Source of the DNA: Chitinophagales bacterium
GTDB taxonomy: Bacteria > Bacteroidota > Bacteroidia > Chitinophagales > CAIODY01
Direction of reading: 5' to 3'
Assembly (NCBI GenBank): GCA_026461075.1
Contig: JAPJNH010000054.1
Span: forward strand, 1-45,908
DNA: 45,908 nucleotides
Shown: piece after piece, positions 1 to 15,163 of the stretch
Layout: every line of letters begins with the position of its first letter
How positions within the stretch are numbered: position 1 is the stretch's first letter
Notes under the pieces: model-generated
Told to the model about the DNA's origin: nothing
Seen by the model: the letters and a program-made list of their open reading frames with translations, nothing else
Database searches by the model: none
Translations under genes and position numbers: made by a program

Positions 1-2
1 GG

Positions 3-87
3 CGGAGGAAAAGGGATTCGAACCCCTGGACCTGTTACAGTCAACAGTTTTCAAGACTGCCGCAATCGACCACTCTGCCATTCCTCC
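3..87 (-). tRNA. tRNA-Ser (anticodon TGA)
   Basis: Reverse complement GGAGGAATGGCAGAGTGGTCGATTGCGGCAGTCTTGAAAACTG...GGTTCGAATCCC TTTTCCTCCG; 7-bp acceptor stem GGAGGAA/TTCCTCC, long variable arm, anticodon loop CTTGAAA. Confidence 0.95.
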
Positions 88-187
88 GCTGCAAAGATAA
101 AACGAATTTTCAAATTCGCAACATTTTTCTTACGAACTTTGTAGCATTACCCTTTGTTATTTAGCTTTATACCCCTAACCTATTCCT

Positions 188-592
188 ATGAACTACTGGC
201 TTATCAAATCCGAACCCTTTGTCTACTCCTATGATCAACTCGTAAATGACGGTAAAACCGACTGGACAGGCGTTCGCAACTACCAAGCCCGTAACAACCT
301 CAAAGCAATGGAAAAAGGCGATATCTGCTTCTACTACCACTCCAATGAAGGAATGGAAATAGTAGGTAGCGCTAAAGTCAATAAAACCTTCTTCCAAGAC
401 CCTACTACCGAAGATAAAAACTGGGTAGCCGTGGAAGTCGTGCCGCATAAAAAATTCAAAAAGACCGTTAAATTACAAGACGTGAAAGAAGATAAACGCC
501 TTGCCAATATGGTACTCGTAAAGAACAGCCGCTTATCGGTTCAACCCGTTACAGCAGTAGAAGCAAAAATCATAGAGGAGCTTTCAAAATAA
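188..592 (+). CDS. EVE domain-containing protein (thymocyte nuclear protein 1-like)
   Basis: MNYWLIKSEP...DWTGVRNYQARNNLKAMEKGDICFYYHS matches EVE/PUA-like family hallmark sequence. Confidence 0.93.
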   Translation: MNYWLIKSEPFVYSYDQLVNDGKTDWTGVRNYQARNNLKAMEKGDICFYYHSNEGMEIVGSAKVNKTFFQDPTTEDKNWVAVEVVPHKKFKKTVKLQDVKEDKRLANMVLVKNSRLSVQPVTAVEAKIIEELSK

Positions 593-602
593 ATAGAAAA
601 GC

Positions 603-1937
603 CTATACCAAGGCCTCCGTTAGCACCCTTCCTGGTAACATCCCTGAAGGTATATCATTATAAAATCCTAATAAATGCGCAATCGTAGGAACGATATCAA
701 TCGTCTCCCCTACCGGCGCCGTATTGCTACCAAAAACTTGGTTCGACTTGATCTTGCCATTCGGACCAACCATCAGCGCAAATAACCTTCTACTGTTCGC
801 ATCACTCGTATGGTCAAAGGCACGCATACCATACGGATCGATAATGGCATTCGGAGAAAGATTTCGCCCATGCTCCGGCATACAAATCATCACCGTATCA
901 TTCGCCAATCCTGGTGTCGATTGTATCTTATTCCACAACCAACCTATCCCATAATCCGCTCTATGCGTATATTCTAAATACGAACTGAAATCACTATGAC
1001 AAACATCCAAGTTGAAGGTATTAATGACAGTCAACTCTGGCTTGAAGGTTTCTAAGACTTGCCACGAATAAGCGATATTCGTCAAATCACCTGTCAGACT
1101 AGCTCTTGAGCCTCCTGGTGTTGGTAATGGCAAGGTATTATTAGCCAACTTCGCATAGGTATCGGCCATAAACTGTTTAATATTCACGCTATCTGCCGCA
1201 TCATTATGTACGCCAGGCATCTCGTTCGCAGCCCGATGAAAACTCTTATTCAGAAAGTCTTTCACCGTCTTCATGCGCTGCACATCATCTGGCTGATACG
1301 TCTTCGCATCACTCAAATATTGTTGTCCATAACCTTCAAAAATGGTAGAAGGATTGATATAGTTAGCACCATACTGCGGACCATATAATGGATGTCGACT
1401 GAAATTCAAACTTGGATATGGTCCTAAGCCTTCTGAAATCCACCACGCATTCACCGCACTCTTATTCGGATTCGTATGCTTGCGATAGTATTCAAATAAA
1501 GTCGGCATGTCTGGATTGATATTTAAATTCAAACCAGTATTGGTATAATTACCCGTCATCGCCACAGTATGCCCATTATAGTGGCCTGTAGGACCTTGTG
1601 CATAACGAAGTTCCTGAAACAAGGATCCTTGCGTACTGAGCGGACTAGTTAATATCGGCGACCAAGGCGTAAAAATCGGATTGCTAAGTGGCGCATTACC
1701 ACTCAACATATTATTCATGATATTACCCATAATAGAAAAGCCTGTTTGCGTAGCGGTGAATTGTTGTTCGATCGATTCTTGATTTCTTAATCCTCCCGCA
1801 AACAATACAAAGACCACATGATTCACGACACGCGACCCTGTAGAAGCAAATAAGCGACCACTCGGCAAGATATACGGAGCAAGAATTGCTCCGGTAGTAG
1901 CAAGGGCGGCTTTCTTTACAAAACTTCTTCTTTTCAT
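603..1937 (-). CDS. DUF1501 family protein (exported, twin-arginine-like signal)
   Basis: ORF 603..1967; start at MKRRSFVKKAALATTGAIL (1937) preferred; FVLFAGGLRNQESIEQQ, MICMPEHGRN and DIVPTIAHLLG resemble the DUF1501 sulfatase-like fold. Confidence 0.8.
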   Translation of the reverse strand: MKRRSFVKKAALATTGAILAPYILPSGRLFASTGSRVVNHVVFVLFAGGLRNQESIEQQFTATQTGFSIMGNIMNNMLSGNAPLSNPIFTPWSPILTSPLSTQGSLFQELRYAQGPTGHYNGHTVAMTGNYTNTGLNLNINPDMPTLFEYYRKHTNPNKSAVNAWWISEGLGPYPSLNFSRHPLYGPQYGANYINPSTIFEGYGQQYLSDAKTYQPDDVQRMKTVKDFLNKSFHRAANEMPGVHNDAADSVNIKQFMADTYAKLANNTLPLPTPGGSRASLTGDLTNIAYSWQVLETFKPELTVINTFNLDVCHSDFSSYLEYTHRADYGIGWLWNKIQSTPGLANDTVMICMPEHGRNLSPNAIIDPYGMRAFDHTSDANSRRLFALMVGPNGKIKSNQVFGSNTAPVGETIDIVPTIAHLLGFYNDIPSGMLPGRVLTEALV

Positions 1938-1947
1938 TGCCTTAGAT

Positions 1948-2469
1948 TTAATAAAACCAATATTCATCGCTCAATGCAAAAGAGCTGTACACCAATTCAG
2001 GAGTCATATTCGGGTCGTCCGTGATTAGTTTACGTAAGCCATACAATTCATATGAAGTAGGCTTGCGTTGGTAAAAACGGATATAGGTATCAGTGATAAA
2101 TTGATCTAGGTTACTGCGCATATAAGCAGCTGTCGGAAGCACTACCCCAGGATTATTCATGTAATGACTCACCAAAATTTCATTCACCAATCCTTTGTCG
2201 CCAAAACCTAAATTTACTTGACTTAAATTGGTCAATTCATTATTCGGAATGGTAGTCTGCTTTAAGTCGGCGTATAAAATAGAGAGGTATTGGGTGGCCG
2301 TTTTTTGCTTAGCCTTTTGAGAAGCAGAAGTATATACTACTTGATTTCCTAAATCATAAATCACATTATCATATACCTTGTCTTGCACAATCGTCTTCTC
2401 ACACGAACTCGTCGCGAAGGCGATTGCCAGACCAATGCTGACCCATAAAACAAATTTAGAAGCCTGCAT
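1948..2469 (-). CDS. Small exported lipoprotein, unknown function
   Basis: Signal peptide with lipobox-like ATSSC; overlaps the next gene in the run. Confidence 0.65.
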   Translation of the reverse strand: MQASKFVLWVSIGLAIAFATSSCEKTIVQDKVYDNVIYDLGNQVVYTSASQKAKQKTATQYLSILYADLKQTTIPNNELTNLSQVNLGFGDKGLVNEILVSHYMNNPGVVLPTAAYMRSNLDQFITDTYIRFYQRKPTSYELYGLRKLITDDPNMTPELVYSSFALSDEYWFY

Positions 2470-3364
2470 AATTTTGGGATGCTAAGATTGTTTTAAGTAA
2501 GAAAAGATAATCATGATTATGCGCTGCGAGCTGATCTTGTAGTGTATGAATTTCTGTATCTGAAGGCTCACGAAGCAAGAAGTTTAGATAAGCCCCGCGT
2601 ATCATCCCTTCATAAAAATCATTAGAGTATACTACGATTTGAATAAAGTCGCCTTTCCCTGTTCCCGATTGACCAAACAAGGTAGCCGCGTTAAAGCCGT
2701 CTACCATTGTTTTTCCGGCAGCGAGCTCATTGGCTGTTGCTGCGCGATGAAATAAATTTTCGAAGCAGGCTTTCACAAAATTCTCCGAACCCATATTGAT
2801 TTGATCGTAGAAGTAGTTGTTCAAAAAGCGCGCATAGAATTGATTGATCGAGAGATTGCCAATTCGGTACAAGGAATCACAATTATACAAATCAACTACT
2901 AGATTATATTCTGAAAGCATATAGTTAGCTCCTACCTGATCATTGTTTGCAAGCGATGATTGATACAAAGATTGGAACTGAGCGCCTTGTTGCGCTATCT
3001 CCAATTTGGAGGTCCCATTCAAAACATTGTTAGAAGTTTTAATGAACAGCTGTTCAAAAAAGGTATGCGACAACATCAGCTGATTCACTAAATTCTCCTT
3101 CGCCAGAACGGTAGTGCTCGCACTCCGAAAGTCACTCACGGCAGCGCTGAGCTCGGCAGCTAATGGTTCACGTCCTAACAAGTCGACATACAACTTATTG
3201 ATATACGCTTCAAGATCTACCGTTGAAATACTAGTCGGCAAGGTGCCATGGTCGACAGGCACAATTAAATTCTCATGCACATTTTCATGTACCGTCTTGC
3301 GGCAGGCACTTTGCAACAAGCAAAGCACACTCAGCATTAAAACGTATAGTAAAGATTTGCGCAT
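2456..3364 (-). CDS. Lipoprotein with YVDLLGREP motif (DUF1549/DUF4214-like segment)
   Basis: Start chosen at MRKSLLYVLMLSVLCLLQSAC (lipobox); AYINKLYVDLLGREPLAAEL motif; overlaps 1948..2469. Confidence 0.65.
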   Translation of the reverse strand: MRKSLLYVLMLSVLCLLQSACRKTVHENVHENLIVPVDHGTLPTSISTVDLEAYINKLYVDLLGREPLAAELSAAVSDFRSASTTVLAKENLVNQLMLSHTFFEQLFIKTSNNVLNGTSKLEIAQQGAQFQSLYQSSLANNDQVGANYMLSEYNLVVDLYNCDSLYRIGNLSINQFYARFLNNYFYDQINMGSENFVKACFENLFHRAATANELAAGKTMVDGFNAATLFGQSGTGKGDFIQIVVYSNDFYEGMIRGAYLNFLLREPSDTEIHTLQDQLAAHNHDYLFLLKTILASQNYAGF

Positions 3365-3398
3365 ACTTAAATATACGCAATGCCAATCGGATTTACAA

Positions 3399-4175
3399 CT
3401 AACCTTTAAAAAGCATTGCAGCAATCCCTTCCACCCAAGATTTAGGCAATAAATTCCCAAGCCAAACCCCCATTTTATTAGAGAAGCCTGCGATCACTTC
3501 TGGCTTACGTTTGAACATACAATGAATAGCCAAACGAGCTACGTCAGACGCTTCCATACCCATCTTCTCAAATATCTTATCGATGGTTTGATTCATCCCT
3601 GCACGCGCTACAAAACCTGTTTTCGTTGGTCCAGGACAGACAGCCGTCACACTCACCTCCCCTTTCCATTCATGATAAAGTGCACGAGAGAAAGACAATA
3701 CAAAAGACTTAGTAGCCGCATAAGCAGCCAACTTAGGAACTGCTTGGAAAGCCGCTGTACTAGCGACATTCAAGACATAGCCTTTTTGCTTTTTCAATAA
3801 GGGGTAGAACAAATACGTCAAGCTCATCAAGGACTCATTATTCAAACGCAACATTTCTTGTTGCTCTTTTAAACTAACTTTTTCAAACGCCCCCCAAACT
3901 CCATAACCAGCATTGTTCACCAATACTTCTACAGCTAGACTTTGCGACTGACAAAATTCAAGCAACTGTACGGGTCCTAAATCATTCGCTAGATCTACTT
4001 TACAAACTAAAGTATCACAGTTATACTTCGACTGAAGATCTGTGGCGATCTGCTTTAACTTCTCCTCCGAACGTGCGGCCAATACCAAATGATAGCCACG
4101 TTGCGCTAATAAAATTGCTAGTTCTGTTCCAATACCGGAGCTGGCTCCTGTGACGATTGCGTACTTCTTTTCCAT
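3399..4175 (-). CDS. SDR family oxidoreductase
   Basis: TGASSGIGTELA, NNAGYG, YAATKSFVLSFSRAL (YxxxK) motifs. Confidence 0.93.
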   Translation of the reverse strand: MEKKYAIVTGASSGIGTELAILLAQRGYHLVLAARSEEKLKQIATDLQSKYNCDTLVCKVDLANDLGPVQLLEFCQSQSLAVEVLVNNAGYGVWGAFEKVSLKEQQEMLRLNNESLMSLTYLFYPLLKKQKGYVLNVASTAAFQAVPKLAAYAATKSFVLSFSRALYHEWKGEVSVTAVCPGPTKTGFVARAGMNQTIDKIFEKMGMEASDVARLAIHCMFKRKPEVIAGFSNKMGVWLGNLLPKSWVEGIAAMLFKG

Positions 4176-4206
4176 GTTCTTACAACGAATATTTTTAAGT
4201 TTTGTT

Positions 4207-4241
4207 CATAAAAAAGGCCCCTTTCGGAGCCTTTTCTAAGG
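4207..4241. terminator. Rho-independent terminator
   Basis: aaaaaaggcccctttcggagccttttct hairpin with A/T tracts downstream of 4245..6269 (-). Confidence 0.75.
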
Positions 4242-4244
4242 TAT

Positions 4245-6269
4245 TTAATGTTTTTCTACTGATTCATGCTCAGCTGTGCTCGGAACTGGATTTTTTTTTT
4301 CAATCTCCATTAGTACCGAATGATTCGGTGCTTGGTTCTTATTACGCACATTGATAATTTTAAAGTTGGTACGACGATTTTGTGCATGCTCTTGTTCAGA
4401 ACATTTAACGCCATCTTGGCAATTATTTACCGGCTGTGACTCACCATAACCGCGAGACACCATACGACGCTTATCAACGCCTTTACGACGTAAATAGAAC
4501 ACAACTGCAGCAGCACGACGCTCACTCAACCACATATTGTATTTCGCTTTACCACGGCTATCGGTATGTGCTGAAATTTCGATATCCAATTGTGGGTTAT
4601 CACGTAATTTCTTCGCTAATGAATCCAATGTCTTCACCGCATCTTTACGAAGCACCCATTTGTTAAATGCATAGTAGATATTACGTAAAGGAATATCCTT
4701 GTTCACTTCAACCGGCTCCATGCCTAAGTTAACCACAAAACCTTTGCGTTTTGCTTCTTTAACCGTACGCAATACATCTTTAGAGCCAATGTATTGATTT
4801 CCTTTAGAAACGCGGATATCATAATTAGAACGACAAGCAACATCATCGAAAGAGTATTTACCTTCTTGATCTGTTGTAGTAGAAATGATAGAATTGTTTT
4901 GGTTATTGATCAACTCAACCTTTGCACCAGCAATTGGCTTGTTTGATTTTTTATCCATGATTTGTCCTTCTACGAATAAAACAGGATCGTTACGAGTCCA
5001 GTCAAAAATACGATCACGACCTGTTCGGTTAGTAGAGAAGAATCCTGTTTCACCAGAACCTTTCGTAACGAAGCAATAATCATCGTGCGAAGAGTTAACA
5101 GGTACGTTCAAGTTTTCTGCAGCATCGAAGCTAGAGCCATTCCAAGTAGCAGAGAACACGTCCAAACCACCTAAGGTATAACGACCATCAGTAGAGAAGT
5201 ACAAAGTATTATTATCATCAACGAATGGGAATACTTCATTACCATTGGAGTTCACTGATTCACCTAAGTTTTGAGGTTCGCTCCATGAATTATTTTCTGC
5301 GTCGAAGTGAACGACATACATATCAGTTCCACCCATACCGCCAGAGCGATCCGACATGAAATACAAATCTTGACCATCAATTGACAAAGCAGGATGACCT
5401 GTATTGAAATCATTGCTATTGAAAGGCAATTCTTTGATATTCTGCCACGTGTTATTGTCTTCTTTAGTAGCTGAATAGATCTTCATGCGGCTGATGTTCA
5501 ACATAGCACCTGACTTATCTTTCGCTTTGATAACGCTTGTACGTGTGAAGTAACAGATATTCCCTTCAGCATTGAAAGTAGCAGGACCTTCGTGCGCAGG
5601 GGTATTGATTTTACCCATCAATTTAACAGGCTTAGTCCATTCTGCATCTGGCACAGTATCTTTTTCAGTATAGAACAAATCGAGGTAGCCAGGAACAGCA
5701 TAAGAGCCTTTCTTAGCTTTCGGGTCTGCAACCTCTTGCGCATACACGATACCATTAAGGTAAGGGACTGCAGCAAAACGATCTCCAGAACCACGGAAAC
5801 CCGCTTCGTTAATCGTGTACAAGGCTGTATCACGTTTAAACATCGCGATAGAGTCGCAACTTTCCATCCATAATGAAACAGAAGGGTCGCTGTTGTTTGT
5901 CAACTCATTGTATTTAGCAAACCATTCACGCGCATCTTCATATTTCTCGTTAGCCATCAACATTTGTGCATAATGCAAAACGTCCTCTGGCGTTGCTTTA
6001 GCCGCTGTTTTTTTACCACGCACTAACTTCGAGTAAGTTGATTCTGCTTGACGCGTTTTGTTGGTCAAACGATAAGCATCTGCAAGCTTTCTTAAGGCAT
6101 CCGCGTTTTCAGGCTTCGACTCCACATATTTCTTCATATAATACGCCGACTTCGGGTAGTTCATCTCGTTATATGCTTGAGAAGCTACCTTGTAGTTTTG
6201 TCCAGAACAGGCTGCTAAAAAGGCTACGGCCAACAGCACTGCAGAGTAGACAAGGGTTTGTTTTTTCAT
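4245..6269 (-). CDS. OmpA family lipoprotein with TPR, PD40 repeats and carboxypeptidase-regulatory-like domain (PorE-like)
   Basis: Lipobox LAACSG; TPR-like N-terminus; PD40 (DLYFMSDRSGGMGGTDMYVV); GQIMDKKSNKPIAGAKVEL; OmpA C-terminus (DIEISAHTDSRGKAKYNMWLSERRAAAV). Confidence 0.85.
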   Translation of the reverse strand: MKKQTLVYSAVLLAVAFLAACSGQNYKVASQAYNEMNYPKSAYYMKKYVESKPENADALRKLADAYRLTNKTRQAESTYSKLVRGKKTAAKATPEDVLHYAQMLMANEKYEDAREWFAKYNELTNNSDPSVSLWMESCDSIAMFKRDTALYTINEAGFRGSGDRFAAVPYLNGIVYAQEVADPKAKKGSYAVPGYLDLFYTEKDTVPDAEWTKPVKLMGKINTPAHEGPATFNAEGNICYFTRTSVIKAKDKSGAMLNISRMKIYSATKEDNNTWQNIKELPFNSNDFNTGHPALSIDGQDLYFMSDRSGGMGGTDMYVVHFDAENNSWSEPQNLGESVNSNGNEVFPFVDDNNTLYFSTDGRYTLGGLDVFSATWNGSSFDAAENLNVPVNSSHDDYCFVTKGSGETGFFSTNRTGRDRIFDWTRNDPVLFVEGQIMDKKSNKPIAGAKVELINNQNNSIISTTTDQEGKYSFDDVACRSNYDIRVSKGNQYIGSKDVLRTVKEAKRKGFVVNLGMEPVEVNKDIPLRNIYYAFNKWVLRKDAVKTLDSLAKKLRDNPQLDIEISAHTDSRGKAKYNMWLSERRAAAVVFYLRRKGVDKRRMVSRGYGESQPVNNCQDGVKCSEQEHAQNRRTNFKIINVRNKNQAPNHSVLMEIEKKNPVPSTAEHESVEKH

Positions 6270-6333
6270 TCCTTCGATTGATTAGATGGACTTATAATAC
6301 TAATGGACAAATTTAATCTATTTTATCCAAAGA

Positions 6334-6366
6334 AAAAGGTCATTTTCCTTAGAAAAATGACCTTTT
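6334..6366. terminator. Rho-independent terminator
   Basis: AAAAGGTCATTTT-CCTTAGA-AAAATGACCTTTT, 13-bp perfect stem downstream of the LolA-like gene. Confidence 0.85.
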
Positions 6367-6403
6367 AGGTTGAAAATTTAGGAAATAGGACATTTCCCTT
6401 AAC

Positions 6404-7078
6404 TTATCGAATATCGTTCACCTCTACACCAGGGTATTTTTTAGCATCGAAAACGAAGCTAGCGTCTGTAACATCTTTCGGGTTAGCCGTAAACTGAACA
6501 ATATCGTAGGTAATGAAACCGCCATTATTGTTGAAGATTTTCATCTTCTGAATCGACTTTTCAGCTTTGTTGACAAAAAGTTTAATCTTAAAATAAGCCT
6601 TCTTTTTATCGGTAGGTGTTAATTCAACTACTTGTAAGCCTTTTGCTGCATCCACTTCTGCCATTTGGTAGATAAATCCCTTTTCGTACATCGTAAAAAT
6701 TTCAGAAGGGTTTACCTCGTGGGCATTGTGCTCATAGTTATTTACTTGCACCTCATTCGACTCCTTAGAGTAAGTCCAAACCGTTTTACCATCGCAATAG
6801 ATATCTTGATTATCCAATTGAATGATGTATTTAGTTCCCTTCAAAACCAAGGCACCTCTTTTCTCTTGCTTGGTCTTCATATTCGGGTGTTCCATGCTCA
6901 ACTTAAAAGTAGCGCGGATAGACTTGATCGCTTTATAGTGTTGGCTAACTGCATCCAATAATGTTTTTGCATTAGGATCCATGGCTGCCGGAGCCGCTTT
7001 TTTCTGTTGAACAAGCATTGGTGCCGATGTAAAGGCAAACGCAGCCACAACAGTCAAAAGCAAGAAAATCTTTTTCAT
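6404..7078 (-). CDS. LolA-like outer-membrane lipoprotein carrier protein
   Basis: Signal peptide MKKIFLLLTVVAAFAFTSA; LDAVSQHYKAIKSIRATFKLSM, YIIQLDNQDIYCDGKTVWTYSKESNEVQV; start moved to the internal Met. Confidence 0.82.
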   Translation of the reverse strand: MKKIFLLLTVVAAFAFTSAPMLVQQKKAAPAAMDPNAKTLLDAVSQHYKAIKSIRATFKLSMEHPNMKTKQEKRGALVLKGTKYIIQLDNQDIYCDGKTVWTYSKESNEVQVNNYEHNAHEVNPSEIFTMYEKGFIYQMAEVDAAKGLQVVELTPTDKKKAYFKIKLFVNKAEKSIQKMKIFNNNGGFITYDIVQFTANPKDVTDASFVFDAKKYPGVEVNDIR

Positions 7079-7139
7079 AAGTAGGTTTTTCAAATCTATG
7101 CAAATATACGGCCAAATTTTGAAATCCACACGCTTTCGC

Positions 7140-9500
7140 TTAGGAAGGCATGACCATCAACTTCGCAAACTTGAGCATGATTTTCTTCGCACCGAGCTGT
7201 TGAAACACCACATTCGCAAAAACCTGATCCCCCGCTGTCTCTAAACTTTCCACTACCCCCATACCAAATTTCTGATGGGCAACATTCACCCCAGCCTGAA
7301 TGGCTTCGAGCGGACTCACCACGAAGTTAGCAGGAACCTGAACCGCTGCAGGTGGCGGCGTCGGAGTGCTAGCGGCAGGACGAACCGGTGCGCTAGGCTG
7401 TGCTGGACGGTTGGCAGGATAATCTGTGCGGTTTTGATTGGCAAAGCCCGGACGGGTATTTTTTGCTGCGTTGTTCGTATAGCCACTACGGAAAGAGGTC
7501 ACACGTGTAAAAGCGTCTGGCTCTTGGGCTTTCGGATGACGGATACCACTCGTTTCGGTAAAATGCTCTGGAATTTCAGTCAAGAAGCGACTTGGATCGC
7601 AGAACATCAACTTTCCAAAACGATAACGGTTCAAGGCATAGGTTAAATATAATTTCTCCCTAGCGCGTGTTACCGCTACGTAAAACAAACGTCTCTCCTC
7701 TTCTAAATCAGAGCGATCATCTACACTTCGGGCACTTGGAAATAACTCTTCTTCCATCCCAACGACAAAAATACAAGGATACTCCAAACCCTTTGCAGAA
7801 TGGACCGTCATCAATTTTACCTTATCTTCGTCCTCTTCTTCTGCTTCACTCGAAGTAAGTAATGAAACGGTTTGTAAATAGCTCCCTAAAGATTTATCTA
7901 CGATCTCACCTGTCTCTTCATTCACACGAACTTCTTCTGTAAATTCCTTAATAGAATTGAGTAACTCTTGTACGTTTTCATAACGACTTACCCCTTCTAC
8001 AGTTTTATCTTCTGCCAACTCCTTAATCAAACCTGTTTGTTTGCCAATATATTGAGCAAGGTCGTAGGCATTGGTATTGGCCATCATCCCGGTAAAAGAC
8101 TTAATCATCCACACAAAATCTTCCAAAGACTTTCCGGCTTTGATAGAATATAAAGAGGCGTTGGCAACCACTTCCCAAAGGGTACGGTCTGTTTCGTGCA
8201 TAGCCACTGTTGCCCTATCCATCGTAGTTTTACCGATTCCACGCGCTGGATAATTGATTACACGACGTAATGCTTCTTCATCTTGCCAGTTGACAGTCAG
8301 GCGTAGATAGGCGATAAAGTCTTTGATCTCCTTTCTTTGGTAGAAGGAAAGACCACCATAGATACGATAAGAAATATCTAAACGGCGCAAGGCTTCCTCA
8401 AAAGAACGGGATTGTGCATTGGTACGATAAAGAATCGCGAAATCCTTATTGCGCCAACGGTTGCGCATTTTGTTTTCAAAAATCTTGTCGGCTACCCAAC
8501 GACCTTCTTCGTTATCGGAGGCGGTTTGTACAATTTGTACTTTGTCGCCACCTGGATTTTCGGTCCAGATTTCTTTTTTAATCTGTGCGCGGTTGTTCTC
8601 AATAATGGAGTTTGCCGACTTTACAATATGTTGGGTGCTACGATAGTTTTGTTCGAGCTTGAAGGTCTTCACATCTGGATAGTCCTTTTCGAAGTTGAGG
8701 ATATTGGCAATCGTCGCGCCACGGAAGGCGTAGATCGACTGGGCGTCATCCCCTACTACAGCGATGTTTTCATTAACGGCCGCGAGTTTTTTGATAATCT
8801 CATACTGCGCGAAGTTGGTATCTTGAAACTCATCAATGAGGATATATTTAAACTTGCGTTGGTATTTCGCAAGGGCCTCTGGCGAATTCTCCAAAAGCTC
8901 ATGCATTTTCACCAAAAGATCGTCAAAGTCCATCGCACCACTCTTCTCACAACGCTTGGTATACCATTCAAAAATCTTGCCCATCATCGGACGGCGAGCC
9001 ATTCGATCCTCTGTCATCAACTCCGGACTCAACTGATATTGTTGCCAGTTGATCAAAGAGTTTTTAGCTGAGGAGATTCTTCCTAAAATGCTATTTGGCT
9101 TGTAGATCGCGTCGTCGAGGTTATTTTCCTTGATGATATTTTTGATAACGCTTTTCGCATCATCGGTATCATAAATCGTAAAATTCGTTGGATAGCCTAT
9201 CTTATCGGCTTCCATGCGTAAGATGCGTGCAAATACGCTGTGGAAGGTACCCATCATCACATTTCGCGCTTCGTCACCTACCATGTGCGAGATACGTTCT
9301 TTCATCTCTTGAGCCGCCTTATTGGTAAAGGTTAGTGCCAAGATATTAAATCCATCCACCCCTGAATTCAACATATGAATGATCCTGTAGGTAAGCACGC
9401 GGGTCTTTCCCGAGCCTGCACCTGCAATGATCATAACCGGTCCGTTGATACATTCAACCGCCTTCCTTTGTTCGGGATTCAATTCTTCTAAATACTGCAT
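7140..9500 (-). CDS. ATP-dependent DNA helicase, UvrD/PcrA family
   Basis: LNPEQRKAV, AGAGSGKTRVLTYRI, LIDEFQDTN, VGDDAQSIYAFRGA, LMTVHSAKGLEYPCIFVVG, VAVTRAREKLYL motifs; PcrA-type C-terminal HQKFGMGVVESL segment. Confidence 0.97.
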   Translation of the reverse strand: MQYLEELNPEQRKAVECINGPVMIIAGAGSGKTRVLTYRIIHMLNSGVDGFNILALTFTNKAAQEMKERISHMVGDEARNVMMGTFHSVFARILRMEADKIGYPTNFTIYDTDDAKSVIKNIIKENNLDDAIYKPNSILGRISSAKNSLINWQQYQLSPELMTEDRMARRPMMGKIFEWYTKRCEKSGAMDFDDLLVKMHELLENSPEALAKYQRKFKYILIDEFQDTNFAQYEIIKKLAAVNENIAVVGDDAQSIYAFRGATIANILNFEKDYPDVKTFKLEQNYRSTQHIVKSANSIIENNRAQIKKEIWTENPGGDKVQIVQTASDNEEGRWVADKIFENKMRNRWRNKDFAILYRTNAQSRSFEEALRRLDISYRIYGGLSFYQRKEIKDFIAYLRLTVNWQDEEALRRVINYPARGIGKTTMDRATVAMHETDRTLWEVVANASLYSIKAGKSLEDFVWMIKSFTGMMANTNAYDLAQYIGKQTGLIKELAEDKTVEGVSRYENVQELLNSIKEFTEEVRVNEETGEIVDKSLGSYLQTVSLLTSSEAEEEDEDKVKLMTVHSAKGLEYPCIFVVGMEEELFPSARSVDDRSDLEEERRLFYVAVTRAREKLYLTYALNRYRFGKLMFCDPSRFLTEIPEHFTETSGIRHPKAQEPDAFTRVTSFRSGYTNNAAKNTRPGFANQNRTDYPANRPAQPSAPVRPAASTPTPPPAAVQVPANFVVSPLEAIQAGVNVAHQKFGMGVVESLETAGDQVFANVVFQQLGAKKIMLKFAKLMVMPS

Positions 9501-9606
9501 AACTCGTTTTTCTATATACGCTTGACTCGCAAAAATAATTTACTTATTAAGGAATTAAGCATAAGCGGGAAAATTAAATTTACTTTGTGTCAGAATTTAT
9601 GCTGAC

Positions 9607-10137
9607 ATGAAGAAAACTAATAACGAAGATTTGGGTAGAATTAGTGTGGAGGAGTATAAAAATAGTCCGAAACACCCGATTGTCATTGTATTAGACAATA
9701 TCCGCAGTTTTCATAACGTAGGTTCGGTATTTCGTACGGCAGACGCCTTTCGTATCGAAGCCGTTTATCTATGTGGCTATACGCCTTGTCCGCCCCACCG
9801 TGATATCCACAAAACCGCTTTAGGAGCTACCGAAAGTGTTACCTGGGAATATCGCGAGAGCACGTTGGATGCAATTCATGAATTAAAAGGTCAAGGTTAT
9901 ACCGTTTATGGCGTTGAACAAGCAGAACCGAAAACGTATTTGAATGAGTTGCAAGTAAACGGTCCGATTGCTTTAGTCATGGGCAGCGAGGTGGGCGGCA
10001 TCGATGAAATAGCGCTTGCAGCATGCGACGCTTGCCTAGAGATTCCACAATGGGGCACCAAGCATTCTTTGAATATATCGGTAGCTACCGGAGTCGTGTT
10101 ATGGGAAGTGATTCGTCAGATCGACCCAAAACATTAA
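9607..10137 (+). CDS. TrmH/SpoU family RNA methyltransferase
   Basis: LDNIRSFHNVGSVFRTADAF, ALVMGSEVGGID, IPQWGTKHSLNISVATGVVLWE (SPOUT motifs 1-3). Confidence 0.92.
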   Translation: MKKTNNEDLGRISVEEYKNSPKHPIVIVLDNIRSFHNVGSVFRTADAFRIEAVYLCGYTPCPPHRDIHKTALGATESVTWEYRESTLDAIHELKGQGYTVYGVEQAEPKTYLNELQVNGPIALVMGSEVGGIDEIALAACDACLEIPQWGTKHSLNISVATGVVLWEVIRQIDPKH

Positions 10138-10604
10138 TCCAATTTCGGCAGTTCGAACTTCATATGTCGAGCAGCCACTTGTGGCAAAACAGCCACAGTA
10201 TGGCGCGACAAGCACATTAAATTACCGGATTCATCTGTAATTTTAATCTCCCAAATTTGGGTCATTCTTCCCAAGTGAATCGGCTTTGCTGTGCCGAGCA
10301 CATAACCTTCATGTTTCGTGCGAATGTGATTGGCATTAATCTCCAAACCAACCGCATAATTCACATCTTGGTCTAAACACAAGTTGGCAGCCAAGCTTCC
10401 GATTGTCTCCGCTAAGGCAACATTCGCTCCGCCATGTAAAAGTCCTGCGCTCTGGCGTGTACGCTGATCCACAGGCATTTTAGCGACTAGATAGTCGTTA
10501 CCCACTTCGACACATTCAATACCCAAAAGTTGAATCATATTGGTCATGAATAGCTCATTGATACGTTGCGGAGTGAGTTGGTATTTCCAAATAATGGTAG
10601 ACAT
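10134..10604 (-). CDS. Hotdog-fold thioesterase (PaaI/YdiI-like)
   Basis: QSAGLLHGGANVALAETIGSLAA; VGLEINANHIRTKHEGYV. Confidence 0.9.
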   Translation of the reverse strand: MSTIIWKYQLTPQRINELFMTNMIQLLGIECVEVGNDYLVAKMPVDQRTRQSAGLLHGGANVALAETIGSLAANLCLDQDVNYAVGLEINANHIRTKHEGYVLGTAKPIHLGRMTQIWEIKITDESGNLMCLSRHTVAVLPQVAARHMKFELPKLD

Positions 10605-10699
10605 AGCTAATTTTTTAACGGGGCGAAGATAATGCCTTTTATTGCAGGATACTATCCCAAGTAAATTGCGTATTTTCGCGCGAGCAATTCAGAAATTTT

Positions 10700-12811
10700 A
10701 TGTCGAAGCAACGTTTTCTTATTACGGCGGCCCTTCCTTATGCGAACGGTCCTATTCATATCGGTCATTTAGCAGGCTGTCATTTGCCTGCGGATATTTT
10801 TGCTCGATACAGGCGTATGCAAGGCGACGACGTATTGTTTATTTGCGGTACGGATGAGCATGGTGTACCTATCACCATTGCAGCCAAGAAAGAGAATACA
10901 ACGCCACAAGCCGTTGCTGATAAGTATCATGAGCTGATCGATGTTTCTCTATATAAGTTTGGCATTTCTTTCGACAACTTCTCAAGAACAACGAACCAAG
11001 TCCATAAGGACACGGCAGCGGAGTTCTTCACGCACCTTTACGATAAGGGACTTTTTATTGAAAAAGAAGAAGAGCAATTTTTTGATGAGCAGAACCAACA
11101 GTTTCTTGCCGACCGTTATATCATGGGCACTTGTCCGAAATGCGGTAACGACAGAGCTTACGGCGATCAATGTGAAAAATGTGGTAGCACTTTAAATCCG
11201 CGCGACCTCATCAATCCGCGTTCAACAATTTCTGACCAGGCATTGGTGATGAAGCCTACAAAGCATTGGTATATTCCATTAGATCAGTATGAGGCTTGGT
11301 TGAGAGAATGGATTTTGGAAGGTCATAAAGAATGGAAGACGAATGTATACGGTCAGTGTAAAAGCTGGATTGATGGCGGTTTGCAAGCACGTGCGGTGAC
11401 GCGTGATTTGGATTGGGGTATTCCTGTTCCTTTAGCAGATGCAAAAGGAAAGGTATTATACGTTTGGTTCGACGCACCGATAGGTTATATAAGCGCTACG
11501 AAAGAGATTACGAACGATTGGAAGAAATACTGGTGTAACGAAGACACACGTTTAATTCACTTCTTAGGAAAGGACAATATCGTGTTTCACTGTATCATCT
11601 TCCCTACCATGTTGAAAATGCATGGCGGTTTTGTATTGCCTGAAAATGTCCCTGCGAATGAGTTCTTGAATTTGGAAGGTGATAAAATCTCCACTTCTAG
11701 AAATTGGGCGGTTTGGTTGCATGAATATTTAGAAGAATTCCCAGAACAACAGGACGTCTTGCGTTATGTATTGGCTGCCAATGCGCCAGAGACGAAGGAC
11801 AATGATTTCACCTGGAAAGACTTCCAGGATCGCAATAACAGCGAGTTGGTTGCGATTTTAGGTAATTTCTTTAATAGAAGTTTAGTCTTAGCACATAAGT
11901 TTTGTGGTGGAAGAATTCCTGCCCATCATGTTTTATTCGATGGTCCTTTAGAGGAGCAATTATGGGGCGAAGTGGAGGCTGGCAAGCAGAAGATAGAGGC
12001 GGCGATGGCGCAGTATAAAATTCGTGAAGCCTTACAAGAGATGATGAACGTGGCACGCGCTGGTAATAAGTATCTAACGGAGTTAGAGCCTTGGAAAAAA
12101 GCAAAAGGTGATTACTATGTTGGCGAAACAGAGGAAGACCAATTACATAATAAATACTTAGTAGAAAATTGCCTATTCCACTGTTTACAGTTATCGGCGA
12201 ACTTGTCGATTTTGATGTATCCATTCATGCCATTTACGGCGAAGAAGATGTTGTTACATTTCAATATTGATAAGCGCGCAAATGAGTTATTGAAATGGGA
12301 GCATATTGGAAGAAAAGATTTATTGTCGACAAGATATATCATCAACAATCCTGTTTTGTTATTTAAGAAAGTAGAAGACGAACAGATTGCTGCGCAGATG
12401 GAGAAGTTGAATCAGCAGAAAATGGCAAGTGCAGCTGCAACTGCAGTGGTAAAGGAAGAGAGCGTGGCAACGGAGCCATTGAAAGCAGAAATCGCTTTTG
12501 ATGATTTCGCTAAAATGGATTTACGTGTAGGGACGATTATCGAGGCTGAGCGTGTACCGAAGGCGGATAAGCTTTTGAAGTTGACGGTCGATCTTGGTTT
12601 TGAAAAACGCACGGTGGTGAGTGGCATTGCCGCACATTACGCTCCTGAAGATATCATCGGTCAGCAGGTAACTTTGCTTGCGAATTTAGCTCCGCGAAAA
12701 ATGCGTGGCGTTGAAAGTCAAGGGATGATTTTAATGGCTGAAGATGCGGATGGCAAGTTGCAGTTTATGCAACCGAAAAATACGACTAGCAACGGCTCTA
12801 GCGTTGCTTAG
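10700..12811 (+). CDS. metG: Methionine--tRNA ligase with C-terminal tRNA-binding domain
   Basis: ITAALPYANGPIHIGHLAG, KMSKS-like DKISTSRNWAVW, zinc-binding CPKCGNDRAYGDQCEKCG, C-terminal DLRVGTIIEAERVPKADKLLKLTVDLG. Confidence 0.97.
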   Translation: MSKQRFLITAALPYANGPIHIGHLAGCHLPADIFARYRRMQGDDVLFICGTDEHGVPITIAAKKENTTPQAVADKYHELIDVSLYKFGISFDNFSRTTNQVHKDTAAEFFTHLYDKGLFIEKEEEQFFDEQNQQFLADRYIMGTCPKCGNDRAYGDQCEKCGSTLNPRDLINPRSTISDQALVMKPTKHWYIPLDQYEAWLREWILEGHKEWKTNVYGQCKSWIDGGLQARAVTRDLDWGIPVPLADAKGKVLYVWFDAPIGYISATKEITNDWKKYWCNEDTRLIHFLGKDNIVFHCIIFPTMLKMHGGFVLPENVPANEFLNLEGDKISTSRNWAVWLHEYLEEFPEQQDVLRYVLAANAPETKDNDFTWKDFQDRNNSELVAILGNFFNRSLVLAHKFCGGRIPAHHVLFDGPLEEQLWGEVEAGKQKIEAAMAQYKIREALQEMMNVARAGNKYLTELEPWKKAKGDYYVGETEEDQLHNKYLVENCLFHCLQLSANLSILMYPFMPFTAKKMLLHFNIDKRANELLKWEHIGRKDLLSTRYIINNPVLLFKKVEDEQIAAQMEKLNQQKMASAAATAVVKEESVATEPLKAEIAFDDFAKMDLRVGTIIEAERVPKADKLLKLTVDLGFEKRTVVSGIAAHYAPEDIIGQQVTLLANLAPRKMRGVESQGMILMAEDADGKLQFMQPKNTTSNGSSVA

Positions 12812-12816
12812 TGGCT

Positions 12817-12888
12817 GGCCTCGTAGTTCAATGGATAGAACGGAAGTTTCCTAAACTTTAAATACAGGTTCGATCCCTGTCGAGGCTA
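12817..12888 (+). tRNA. tRNA-Arg (anticodon CCT)
   Basis: GGCCTCG/CGAGGCT acceptor, anticodon stem GAAGT/ACTTT with loop TTCCTAA, T arm ACAGGTTCGATCCCTGT; CCA not encoded. Confidence 0.93.
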
Positions 12889-12896
12889 CATTGTAT

Positions 12897-13250
12897 ATGC
12901 CACGGTTCGTCCCGAACTCCCGAAACTTCGGGACGGGACCCAATGCAACGGTTCGTGTCCCCACGAACCGTAATAATTTCAAAAAAACAATTAATTATAA
13001 TGCATTCAATATGGATCGTGAGACACGAACCATAACGGTTTATCATGCCACGGTTCGTCCTGAACTCCCGAAACTTCGGGACGGGACTCAATGCAACGGT
13101 TCGTGTCCCCACGAACCGTAATAATTTCAAAAAAAAACAATTAATTATAATGCATTCAATATGGTTCGTGAGACACGAACCATAACGGTTTTTAATGCAA
13201 TGGTTGGTCCCGAACTCCCGAAACTTCGGGACGGGACACCACGAACCGTA
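12897..13250. repeat. REP-like palindrome array, left side (about 2.4 tandem units of 148-150 bp)
   Basis: Unit order C (GTCCCGAACTCCCGAAACTTCGGGACGGGAC: 12909-12939, 13057-13087, 13207-13237) - A (ACGGTTCGTGTCCCCACGAACCGT: 12948-12971, 13096-13119; right arm only 13240-13249) - spacer - B (ATGGTTCGTGAGACACGAACCAT: 13011-13033 with one change, 13161-13183). Confidence 0.95.
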
Positions 13251-13317
13251 AAATTATACTGCACAAAACAATATCTAGACCAATTGTCACGTTATATAGG
13301 TAATTAAAATTAATAAC

Positions 13318-13875
13318 GTGAATAGCAAGAAGTCAATAAGGCGGAAATCATATACTGAACCAGGTAAACTTTACTTTTTCACAGCAACAATAAATCAGTG
13401 GGAGCGTCTATTTGAGTTAGAGAGAAATAAAGAAATTGTAATCGAATGTTTGCAACATCTATCAAACACGAATAAAATAAGAGTTTATGGTATTGTAATA
13501 ATGCCTACGCATCTGCATATAATATGGCAAATTCTAGAATCAAACAACAAAGAATCCCCACAAACAACATTTTTAAAATTCACAGCGCATGCATTTCTAA
13601 AAACTATTAAAGACAAAAAGAAACAATTGTTAAGTAATTATAGAGTCAATGCAAACAACAAACGTTATGCATTCTGGCAAAGAGATTCACTTGCTTTCGA
13701 ATTAACAAAGAGAAAAACAGCATTAACAAAATTAAATTACATTCACAACAACCCTATTGCTAAACACTGGCGACTAGCAAGCTCACCTGAGGAATACAAA
13801 TATTCATCTGCACAATTTTACAAGAATGGAGAAAACAATTTTTCATTTCTGAAGCACATCATTGAAGTTATTTAG
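13318..13875 (+). CDS. REP-associated tyrosine transposase (RAYT; Y1/HUH transposase_17-like)
   Basis: GKLYFFTATINQWERLF, HUH motif VIMPTHLHIIW, catalytic-Tyr region KLNYIHNNPIAKHWRLASSPEEYKYSSA; GTG start. Confidence 0.93.
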   Translation: MNSKKSIRRKSYTEPGKLYFFTATINQWERLFELERNKEIVIECLQHLSNTNKIRVYGIVIMPTHLHIIWQILESNNKESPQTTFLKFTAHAFLKTIKDKKKQLLSNYRVNANNKRYAFWQRDSLAFELTKRKTALTKLNYIHNNPIAKHWRLASSPEEYKYSSAQFYKNGENNFSFLKHIIEVI

Positions 13876-13887
13876 ATTGAATTTGAA

Positions 13888-14229
13888 ATGGTTCGTGAGC
13901 CACGAACCATAACGGTTTATCATGCAACGGTTCGTTTTTCTTGCCACGGTTCGTGTCCCCACGAACCGTAATAAATTCAAAAAAAAACGATTAATTACTT
14001 CAAGATGGTTCGTGAGACACGAACCAATACATATTTCCTTTACAACACCCCATTACTCTTATAAAACAAAATACTCTTGCCACGGTTCGTGTCCCCACGA
14101 ACCGTGATAATTTCAAAAAAAACAATTAATCACAATACATTCAAGATGGTTCGTGAGACACGAACCATAACGGTTTTTCATGCCGCGGTTCGTCCCGAAC
14201 ATTCGGGACATTACGTAAGACACGAACCA
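13888..14229. repeat. REP-like palindrome array, right side
   Basis: B 13888-13910, A 13946-13969, B 14005-14027, A 14082-14105, B 14146-14168, short C-like hairpin GTCCCGAA-CA-TTCGGGAC 14192-14209, B remnant 14217-14229. Confidence 0.95.
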
Positions 14230-14242
14230 TTACATATTTCCT

Positions 14243-15163
14243 TTACAACACCCCTTTACTCTTGTAAAACAAAATACTACGCTTAATCCCCTCTTCTACC
14301 CCAAAGGACAGGGAAGAATTATGCGGAACATATTCTACCTTATTGGAAATGGCATTTAGTTTATTAATTCCTACGCTTCGAAAAAGACGAATTAAAAAAC
14401 TAGGAATACGAACAAGTCTATTGGGATGTGATAAGCTTTGCGCAAGCAAGGTGTAAAAATCTTTCAAGGACATCGCTGTACCAACATTGCGTATTTCGAG
14501 ATTTGTAGTGCTATCGAAGGCGGATTTTATCTCTTCCACTAAATCTTTAACGTAGACGTAGTTAACCATCGCCCCTTCACTATAAATAGCTGGTCGGCCT
14601 TTTTGTAATTGCTGACAGAGATTCAATAAAGCATTGAATGGATGATGTTCGCCAAATACATTGGTCGGACGAAGGATGCAACAATTGATTTGGCCAGCGT
14701 GTGCTGCTTTCGATAGAATCTCTTCCGACTTCAACTTCGTTATTTCATATCGGTTCTTTGGATCGCAGGGATAGAATTCATCCACTAAAACAGTTTTGGC
14801 TGCGTATTGCATACCCACCACCCCAACACTACTCAAATGAAGTATTTTAGGCACCTGACAAAACACCGCTGCATCTGCTAAATTTTGCACCCCAATAATA
14901 TTACTCGCCTCCATCATCGACTCATTACGAATTTCAGCGGCTATATTCACTACTAAATCTTGTCCAGCGAACGCACGTTTCAAACTTTCAACATCCGCTA
15001 AATCAGCCACAACTTGTTCGCACTTACTAAAATCAGCCCACGTAGATTTTGAAAAGCTTCTACTAATAATTCTAACATTATATCGGTTGTAGTCGATACT
15101 TTCTAAAAAGTGCTGTCCGACAAAACCCGTTGCTCCGGTAATTACTAGGTTAAATTTAGCCAT
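14243..15163 (-). CDS. NAD-dependent epimerase/dehydratase family protein
   Basis: VITGATGFVGQHFLESI Rossmann motif; YEITKLKSEEIL (YxxxK); NVFGEHH. Confidence 0.9.
   Translation of the reverse strand: MAKFNLVITGATGFVGQHFLESIDYNRYNVRIISRSFSKSTWADFSKCEQVVADLADVESLKRAFAGQDLVVNIAAEIRNESMMEASNIIGVQNLADAAVFCQVPKILHLSSVGVVGMQYAAKTVLVDEFYPCDPKNRYEITKLKSEEILSKAAHAGQINCCILRPTNVFGEHHPFNALLNLCQQLQKGRPAIYSEGAMVNYVYVKDLVEEIKSAFDSTTNLEIRNVGTAMSLKDFYTLLAQSLSHPNRLVRIPSFLIRLFRSVGINKLNAISNKVEYVPHNSSLSFGVEEGIKRSILFYKSKGVL

Follow-up and report, generated by a model that had tools for sequence, protein, structure and literature searches.

The REP-associated tyrosine transposases (RAYTs), the REPtron, the REPIN and a TnpA_Y1 subclass, 2.6, with atypical hairpins are already known. 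This subclass (Bertels group 5 in the table of Quentin et al., 2018, PMC6006769) is the one closest to the locus described here: it is found mainly in Bacteroidetes, its proteins are of ~180 aa with the motifs NH[LIV]H, WQ and YIH[QN]NP, and its genes are flanked by hairpins with copies elsewhere in the genome and no GT[AG]G. These hairpins were termed 'atypical secondary structures' and described as weaker, and the main text gives no consensus for them; in the main texts of the literature we found no stated consensus, foot or loop rule for the hairpins of subclass 2.6. Experiments on RAYT-REP recognition in the literature consulted concern groups 2 and 3 only (E. coli; Corneloup et al., 2021, PMC8266576). 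In the E. coli REPtron (group 2; structure 4ER8) a single gene lies between inverted REP pairs and the REPs are intergenic, with a GTAG foot and a bulge in the stem, while the loop is not read. The group 3 REPtrons of Stenotrophomonas and Marinomonas (PMC8266576) have perfect short palindromes with stems of 5–8 bp that keep the GTAG foot, although the foot is more tolerant and positions in the loop are essential. REPINs (Bertels and Rainey, 2011, PMC3116915) are dispersed as units made of an inverted REP pair with GTAG or GTGG feet, and TIRYT/TIRtron elements (Di Nocera et al., 2013, PMC3733652) carry long terminal inverted repeats. Lastly, insertion sequences of the IS200/IS605 type occur as multiple near-identical copies, with a Y-x-x-x-Q motif and often a tnpB gene.

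A single-copy transposase of probable subclass 2.6 type

The window (the whole stretch of 45,908 nucleotides of Chitinophagales DNA that was analysed) carries at 13318–13875, on the + strand, an ORF with a GTG start that encodes 185 aa. The sequence-only reading had recognized it as a Y1/HUH ORF with HLH and YIHNNP motifs amid palindromes and as a Bacteroidota RAYT, and our analysis agrees on both points. The HUH motif is T64-H65-L66-H67, W120-Q121 is present and the putative catalytic Y141 lies within YIHNNP. The product matches the NCBIfam family NF047646 (REP_Tyr_transpos) with 84.7 bits, above the cut-off of 80, and its AlphaFold2 model (mean pLDDT 92.2) has as best PDB match in Foldseek 4er8_A (E 3.5e-8), a RAYT bound to a REP hairpin, with the ISDra2 and IS608 transposases as the next structural matches. 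Judged by profile and predicted fold, the product is thus a REP-associated tyrosine transposase of the Y1/HUH type. Pfam Y1_Tnp is matched only at E = 0.017, below the Pfam cut-off, which explains why a search of the own genome with this family returned nothing over the E 1e-3 threshold.

By its motifs (the HLH core, WQ and YIHNNP) and by its length, near the 179 aa of subclass 2.6, the protein fits this subclass. It differs in having THLH in place of NH[LIV]H, as the N corresponds to T64 both in the window protein and in that of the sister species, and is almost invariant among the other relatives. The fold is that of the E. coli enzyme, but the E. coli residues that contact GTAG (E100, H101, and R104) are not kept and correspond here, in an alignment made by eye, to A126, F127, and T130.

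The gene is present in one copy in its genome, no tnpB was found beside it among the ORFs of the window, and the same genes flank it on both sides in the sister genome. No RAYT relative was found in a phage collection of 50,697 records and no close relative in viral contigs, and only seven of 72,556 plasmid records contain relatives, all of them distant. Given the single genomic copy, the absence of phage relatives and the few distant plasmid matches, the behaviour of the gene is not that of an insertion sequence. It is apparently one chromosomal, domesticated Y1/HUH transposase within an array of its own REPs. A second RAYT in a relative (L030 in genome G001), 30% identical, has long inverted repeats (CCCCTGCTGGCGCA..GCCGACTTGTGCC, at 1410–1480 and 2070–2130) like those of the TIRtrons, whereas the window gene has hairpins and no long terminal inverted repeats. 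Among 80 related RAYT genes, 10 contain stop codons in frame, and in four of these ten the stop falls at the same conserved Trp, equivalent to W28 of the window protein (TGA in two cases and TAG in two).

One REP in two orientations and a separate palindrome

The gene is surrounded by nine hairpins that had been described as two palindromes, A with four identical 24-mers and B with five slightly varying copies, counts that we confirmed. The A copies (ACGGTTCGTGTCCCCACGAACCGT), all on the + strand, are A1 at 12948–12971 (loop TCCC, foot TGCA), A2 at 13096–13119 (foot TGCA), A3 at 13946–13969, and A4 at 14082–14105 (both with foot TGCC). The B copies, all inverted on the − strand, are B1 at 13011–13033 (loop TCT, one mismatch in the 5' arm; model match at 13007–13038 on the − strand), B2 at 13161–13183 (foot CGTT), B3 at 13888–13910 (loop GCT, the closest hairpin downstream of the RAYT gene), B4 at 14005–14026 (foot TGTA), and B5 at 14146–14168 (foot CGTT). 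However, A and B are not different palindromes: the reverse complement of B is GGTTCGTG-TCT-CACGAACC and A is GGTTCGTG-TCCC-CACGAACC, so that B is A in the opposite orientation, its AGA loop being TCT on the other strand. The order A B A B, gene, B A B A B is one of REP and inverted REP and, B being A reversed, each A..B is an inverted REP pair in the ordinary REPIN/BIME layout; the alternation that had seemed unusual is therefore an ordinary arrangement. The pattern GGTTCGTG N2-8 CACGAACC matches eight times in the window against none in 100 dinucleotide shuffles, and a single A-B unit folds as ssDNA with −24.4 kcal/mol (z = −6.9). The foot in this genome is mostly GYY (GCC, GCT, or GTT), with the B copies having GTT or GTA rather than CC.

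Several observations concern the surroundings of the array. A tRNA-Arg (CCT) at 12817–12889, the only Rfam match, ends ~10 nt short of its start. A direct repeat of 65 nt (14011–14075 and 14214–14278, 94% identical) spans B4 and C4 (see below) to the right of the gene, and a similar stretch exists in the sister genome. Identity to the sister species (L126 and L127; G005) is 93–95% to the left of the array (1–12906) and 72–74% over most of the right side (14330 to ~23.7 kb), a sharp break that is perhaps the end point of a recombination. In the sister genome, a 19-nt unit equivalent to half a B element, CGTGAGACACGAACCATAA, is repeated in tandem about nine times upstream of the RAYT (L025, about 1181–1357). 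The RAYT of the sister genus has beside it extended series of degenerate units that resemble CGCAATACTATATCGCATAGCCGCTATAC (L026 901–1250, L027 1001–1350, and L028 801–1200).

A third palindrome, C, had been counted three times to the left of the gene and once, shortened, to its right. The counts hold, but only the third copy is a complete nested hairpin on the left. C1 (12902–12939, core 12918–12933) and C2 (13050–13087, core 13066–13081), both on the + strand like the other two, consist of the 5' arm of A leading into a CCCGAA palindrome, with no right outer arm. C3 (13200–13249, core 13216–13231) is a REP with the CCCGAA palindrome nested in its apex and both outer arms kept, and C4 (14185–14229, core 14193–14208) is a short nested form with outer arms GGTTCG..CGAACC. 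The orthologous site of C3 in the sister (L025) is a plain hairpin, ACGGTTCGTG-TCCA-CACGAACCGT, which gives C3 the appearance of a REP that had its apex replaced or invaded. The core of C (TCCCGAANNTTCGGGA) has 35 copies in the own genome and a single one in the sister species, and is absent from the four other genomes of the family; about 10 of the 35 cores touch an A or B element, while the rest stand alone, several of them within a longer repeat of their own. To judge from these sequences, C is a separate, dispersed palindrome family that appears to have grown into, or been inserted at, the apex of some REPs, rather than a third part of the system as had been proposed. As a target of the RAYT it is an unlikely candidate, since most cores are alone and none is found in the relatives from other genera that have RAYT and REPs, and it is probably not part of what the enzyme recognizes. 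Several CCCGAA palindromes, at seven loci, lie inside a longer dispersed repeat (ccactttttcccaa-palindrome-tggagcaaaaatcgcc..gagaatctgatgctaaaat), possibly a separate small mobile element.

The REPs are not confined to the array. Over the 2.53-Mb assembly the palindrome pattern has 26 exact copies against none for a control pattern, 18 of them dispersed beyond the array, so that the gene has what is expected of a RAYT, a single copy with flanking REPs that also occur elsewhere in the genome. The earlier reading had proposed to look for an intergenic bias, and all 18 dispersed copies are intergenic, as in E. coli; for 14 of them both flanking genes are known, and these genes converge in 10 cases and diverge in none. 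The two outer pairs of the stem vary among copies, but a change on one side is accompanied by one on the other (16 double-changed cells; 4.0 on average in shuffles). Inverted A..B pairs away from the gene occur at three places (L003, L005, and L010), and two inverted REPs dispersed as one unit, the hallmark of REPINs, were found both in the own genome and in the sister genus. In the latter, a unit of ~64 nt composed of GCC, REP, spacer, inverted REP, and GGC recurs ~12 times in one genome and ~6 times in another, the units being mostly 77–95% identical with unrelated flanks that start right at the feet. These units are the best evidence, from comparison of sequences, that the inverted pair with both its feet may be what spreads. 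They differ from the described REPINs in their ends (GCC..GGC instead of GTAG or GTGG feet) and in the low copy numbers seen here, in the tens. No empty site exact to the base was found for the locus itself, the sister having the same neighbours with 72% identity to the right of the array, nor a clean pair of filled and empty sites among the flanks of the dispersed units in the sister genus, as the relatives have diverged too far or the sites fail to align.

A hairpin signature across related loci

Scanning species genomes, we retrieved 80 RAYT relatives with their flanks (38–95% identity), and from 66 loci we obtained 209 oriented hairpins, weighted by locus. Hairpins with a GTG/CAC top reach 3.74 per kb within 300 bp of a RAYT gene, compared to 0.007 per kb at 2–3 kb. 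The top of the stem is almost fixed (2.0, 1.7, and 2.0 bits), the loop starts with T (0.91) and then C (0.71) with a consensus TCYY, the middle of the stem is free (0.2–1.0 bit at three positions), and the lower stem differs between species on both arms. The modal stem is of 10 bp and perfect, as in 125 of the 209. The two positions that immediately precede the stem on its 5' side are mostly C (0.83 and 0.75; 1.1 and 0.9 bits), whereas the 3' flank has <0.2 bit; CC is at the 5' foot of 151 of the 209 hairpins and GG at the 3' side of six. The one-sidedness is kept at loci with <60% mutual identity, where 61 of 93 hairpins have CC at the 5' foot and 5 of 93 have GG on the 3' side, and CC is the majority foot in 13 of the 23 loci of the thinned set. 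None of the 209 hairpins has the canonical GT[AG]G foot, which rules out GTAG as the foot of these REPs and bears out the earlier statement that the proteobacterial guide is missing.

The hairpins are also oriented with respect to the gene, the nearest one upstream being in sense in 43 loci against 16 (59 loci) and the nearest one downstream in antisense in 50 against 10 (60 loci). Strict alternation of orientation is weakly above chance (p = 0.02), little support for a rule of the family. At 15 of 81 RAYTs there are no hairpins of the GTG/CAC type, and the hairpins of more distant RAYTs are equal in size but differ at the top, e.g., GCGTAGTC-TCCT-GACTACGC at L029.

What is new here is this shared signature of 66 RAYT loci: a perfect stem of 10 bp, a GTG/CAC top, a TCYY loop, and a CC foot on the 5' side. 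It defines, for one clade, a common form of the hairpins that had been left as atypical in subclass 2.6. What departs from the classic system is a constant apex (GTG-TCYY-CAC) together with a CC/GYY foot: the stem is perfect, with neither the bulge nor the GTAG of E. coli, the loop is constant, and the stems and loops are different from those of group 3. The proposal of a distinct BIME-like architecture thus stands as regards the lack of GTAG, the constant apex and the foot, but not as regards the A/B alternation, which is ordinary, or C, which is separate.

Loop type follows the RAYT tree. When the loop classes TC, TT, GC, and CG were placed on the tree of 81 RAYTs they required 4 changes, with a minimum of 3 and a shuffled mean of 19.3 (none of 200 shuffles was as low); the GC-loop group is one supported branch, and all TT loci but one fall in one supported branch. 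The protein columns at which TC and TT RAYTs differ are concentrated at 73–95, in or before the helix formed by residues 81–100 (N76, P81, H91 to Q, and K95 to F), with Q121 to E also among them. Corneloup et al. (2021, PMC8266576) suggested loop contacts for a helix positionally equal to residues 81–100. That this helix reads the loop is a lead only, because the columns separating the loop classes also separate clades and the test is confounded by clade.

Among 399 genomes of the order, a RAYT match (E <= 1e-25) was found in 73, the exact palindrome in 47, and both in 27 (odds ratio 9, Fisher p = 8.6e-11), the association with RAYTs for which the earlier reading had proposed to look. The exact palindrome is present in 21 of the 29 genomes with a closer RAYT, and 20 of the 47 palindrome-bearing genomes have no RAYT match at E <= 1e-25. 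One genome of 4.7 Mb within the order (G221) contains 114 exact GGTTCGTG..CACGAACC palindromes, far above any other.

Interpretation of the locus

We consider it very probable that the locus is a REPtron of subclass 2.6, with the RAYT lying within an array of its own REPs, the hairpins as its targets, the inverted pair dispersed and C a separate element. By analogy with the characterized systems, the enzyme would recognize and cleave the hairpins: it may bind the single-stranded REP hairpin, probably on the lagging strand, the DNA-binding helix (residues 81–100) would read the loop, and the foot, in place of GTAG, would select the cut sites. Homology suggests that ssDNA would be bound and then cut through Y141, and that loop and foot would determine the choice of strand, the single-stranded REP and not its inverted counterpart being cut and joined. 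Under the cross-pairing rule of Corneloup et al. (2021), a CC foot would select sites with G (GG or GC), as at the GGC end of the unit. The inverted pair, whose ends would be the two feet (GCC..GGC), may be moved or copied while the gene stays put.

An arrangement of three recognition palindromes in one new BIME-like architecture, as first proposed, would account for the presence of A, B, and C in the same array and for the outer arms that C often shares with A. It is very improbable, given that B is simply A reversed, that C-cores mostly stand apart from A and B, and that relatives from other genera have RAYT and REPs with no C-core. Slightly more doubtful still is a role of the hairpins as transcription terminators or RNA hairpins, with their position around the gene being incidental. 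Two B copies are terminator-like by score and the dispersed copies favour convergent gene pairs, so that a secondary role as terminators is possible, but their concentration around RAYT genes is >500-fold, the loop is oriented, the foot is one-sided, the loop type follows the RAYT tree, and a U-tract common to the family is absent. The Y1/HUH fold and the structural likeness to the IS608 and ISDra2 transposases could also suggest an autonomous insertion sequence of the IS200/IS605 type with the hairpins as its ends; this we regard as extremely improbable in view of the one genomic copy with no adjacent tnpB, a Y-x-x-NP motif instead of Y-x-x-x-Q, the sub-threshold Y1_Tnp score, flanking genes shared with the sister genome on either side, and relatives that number none among the phage records and a few distant ones among the plasmid records.

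A different matter is whether the dispersed palindromes still move or are old, vertically inherited remnants. The in-frame stops in one part of the related RAYT genes and the genomes that hold palindromes with no detected RAYT are in keeping with remnants, but we judge this unlikely, as there are 26 exact copies here but only 3 in the sister species, where each lies at the RAYT, and the numbers of exact copies range from 0 to 114 between genomes. The age of the dispersed copies is mixed, since the covariance model still finds diverged ones in the sister.

Returning to the REPtron, it is about an even chance that the subclass 2.6 RAYTs of Bacteroidota are a separate class as regards recognition. 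In such a class the loop (TCYY, TTRT, or GCY, depending on the clade) would hold the specificity and would be read by, and co-evolve with, helix alpha-3, the CC/GYY foot would replace GTAG as guide to the cut site, and loop and foot would be exchangeable as modules. For REP recognition without GTAG in this mainly Bacteroidetes subclass, the signature supplies testable oligonucleotides, with the strand and the loop and foot changes defined, and the clades that differ at a few helix residues offer natural pairs of RAYT and loop. REPINs of Bacteroidota, for which the main texts lack consensus sequences, can also be searched for with this signature. Hairpins with a constant mark in the loop and a short CC-type foot provide a new handle on how a poorly studied group of enzymes may recognize its targets and spread them.
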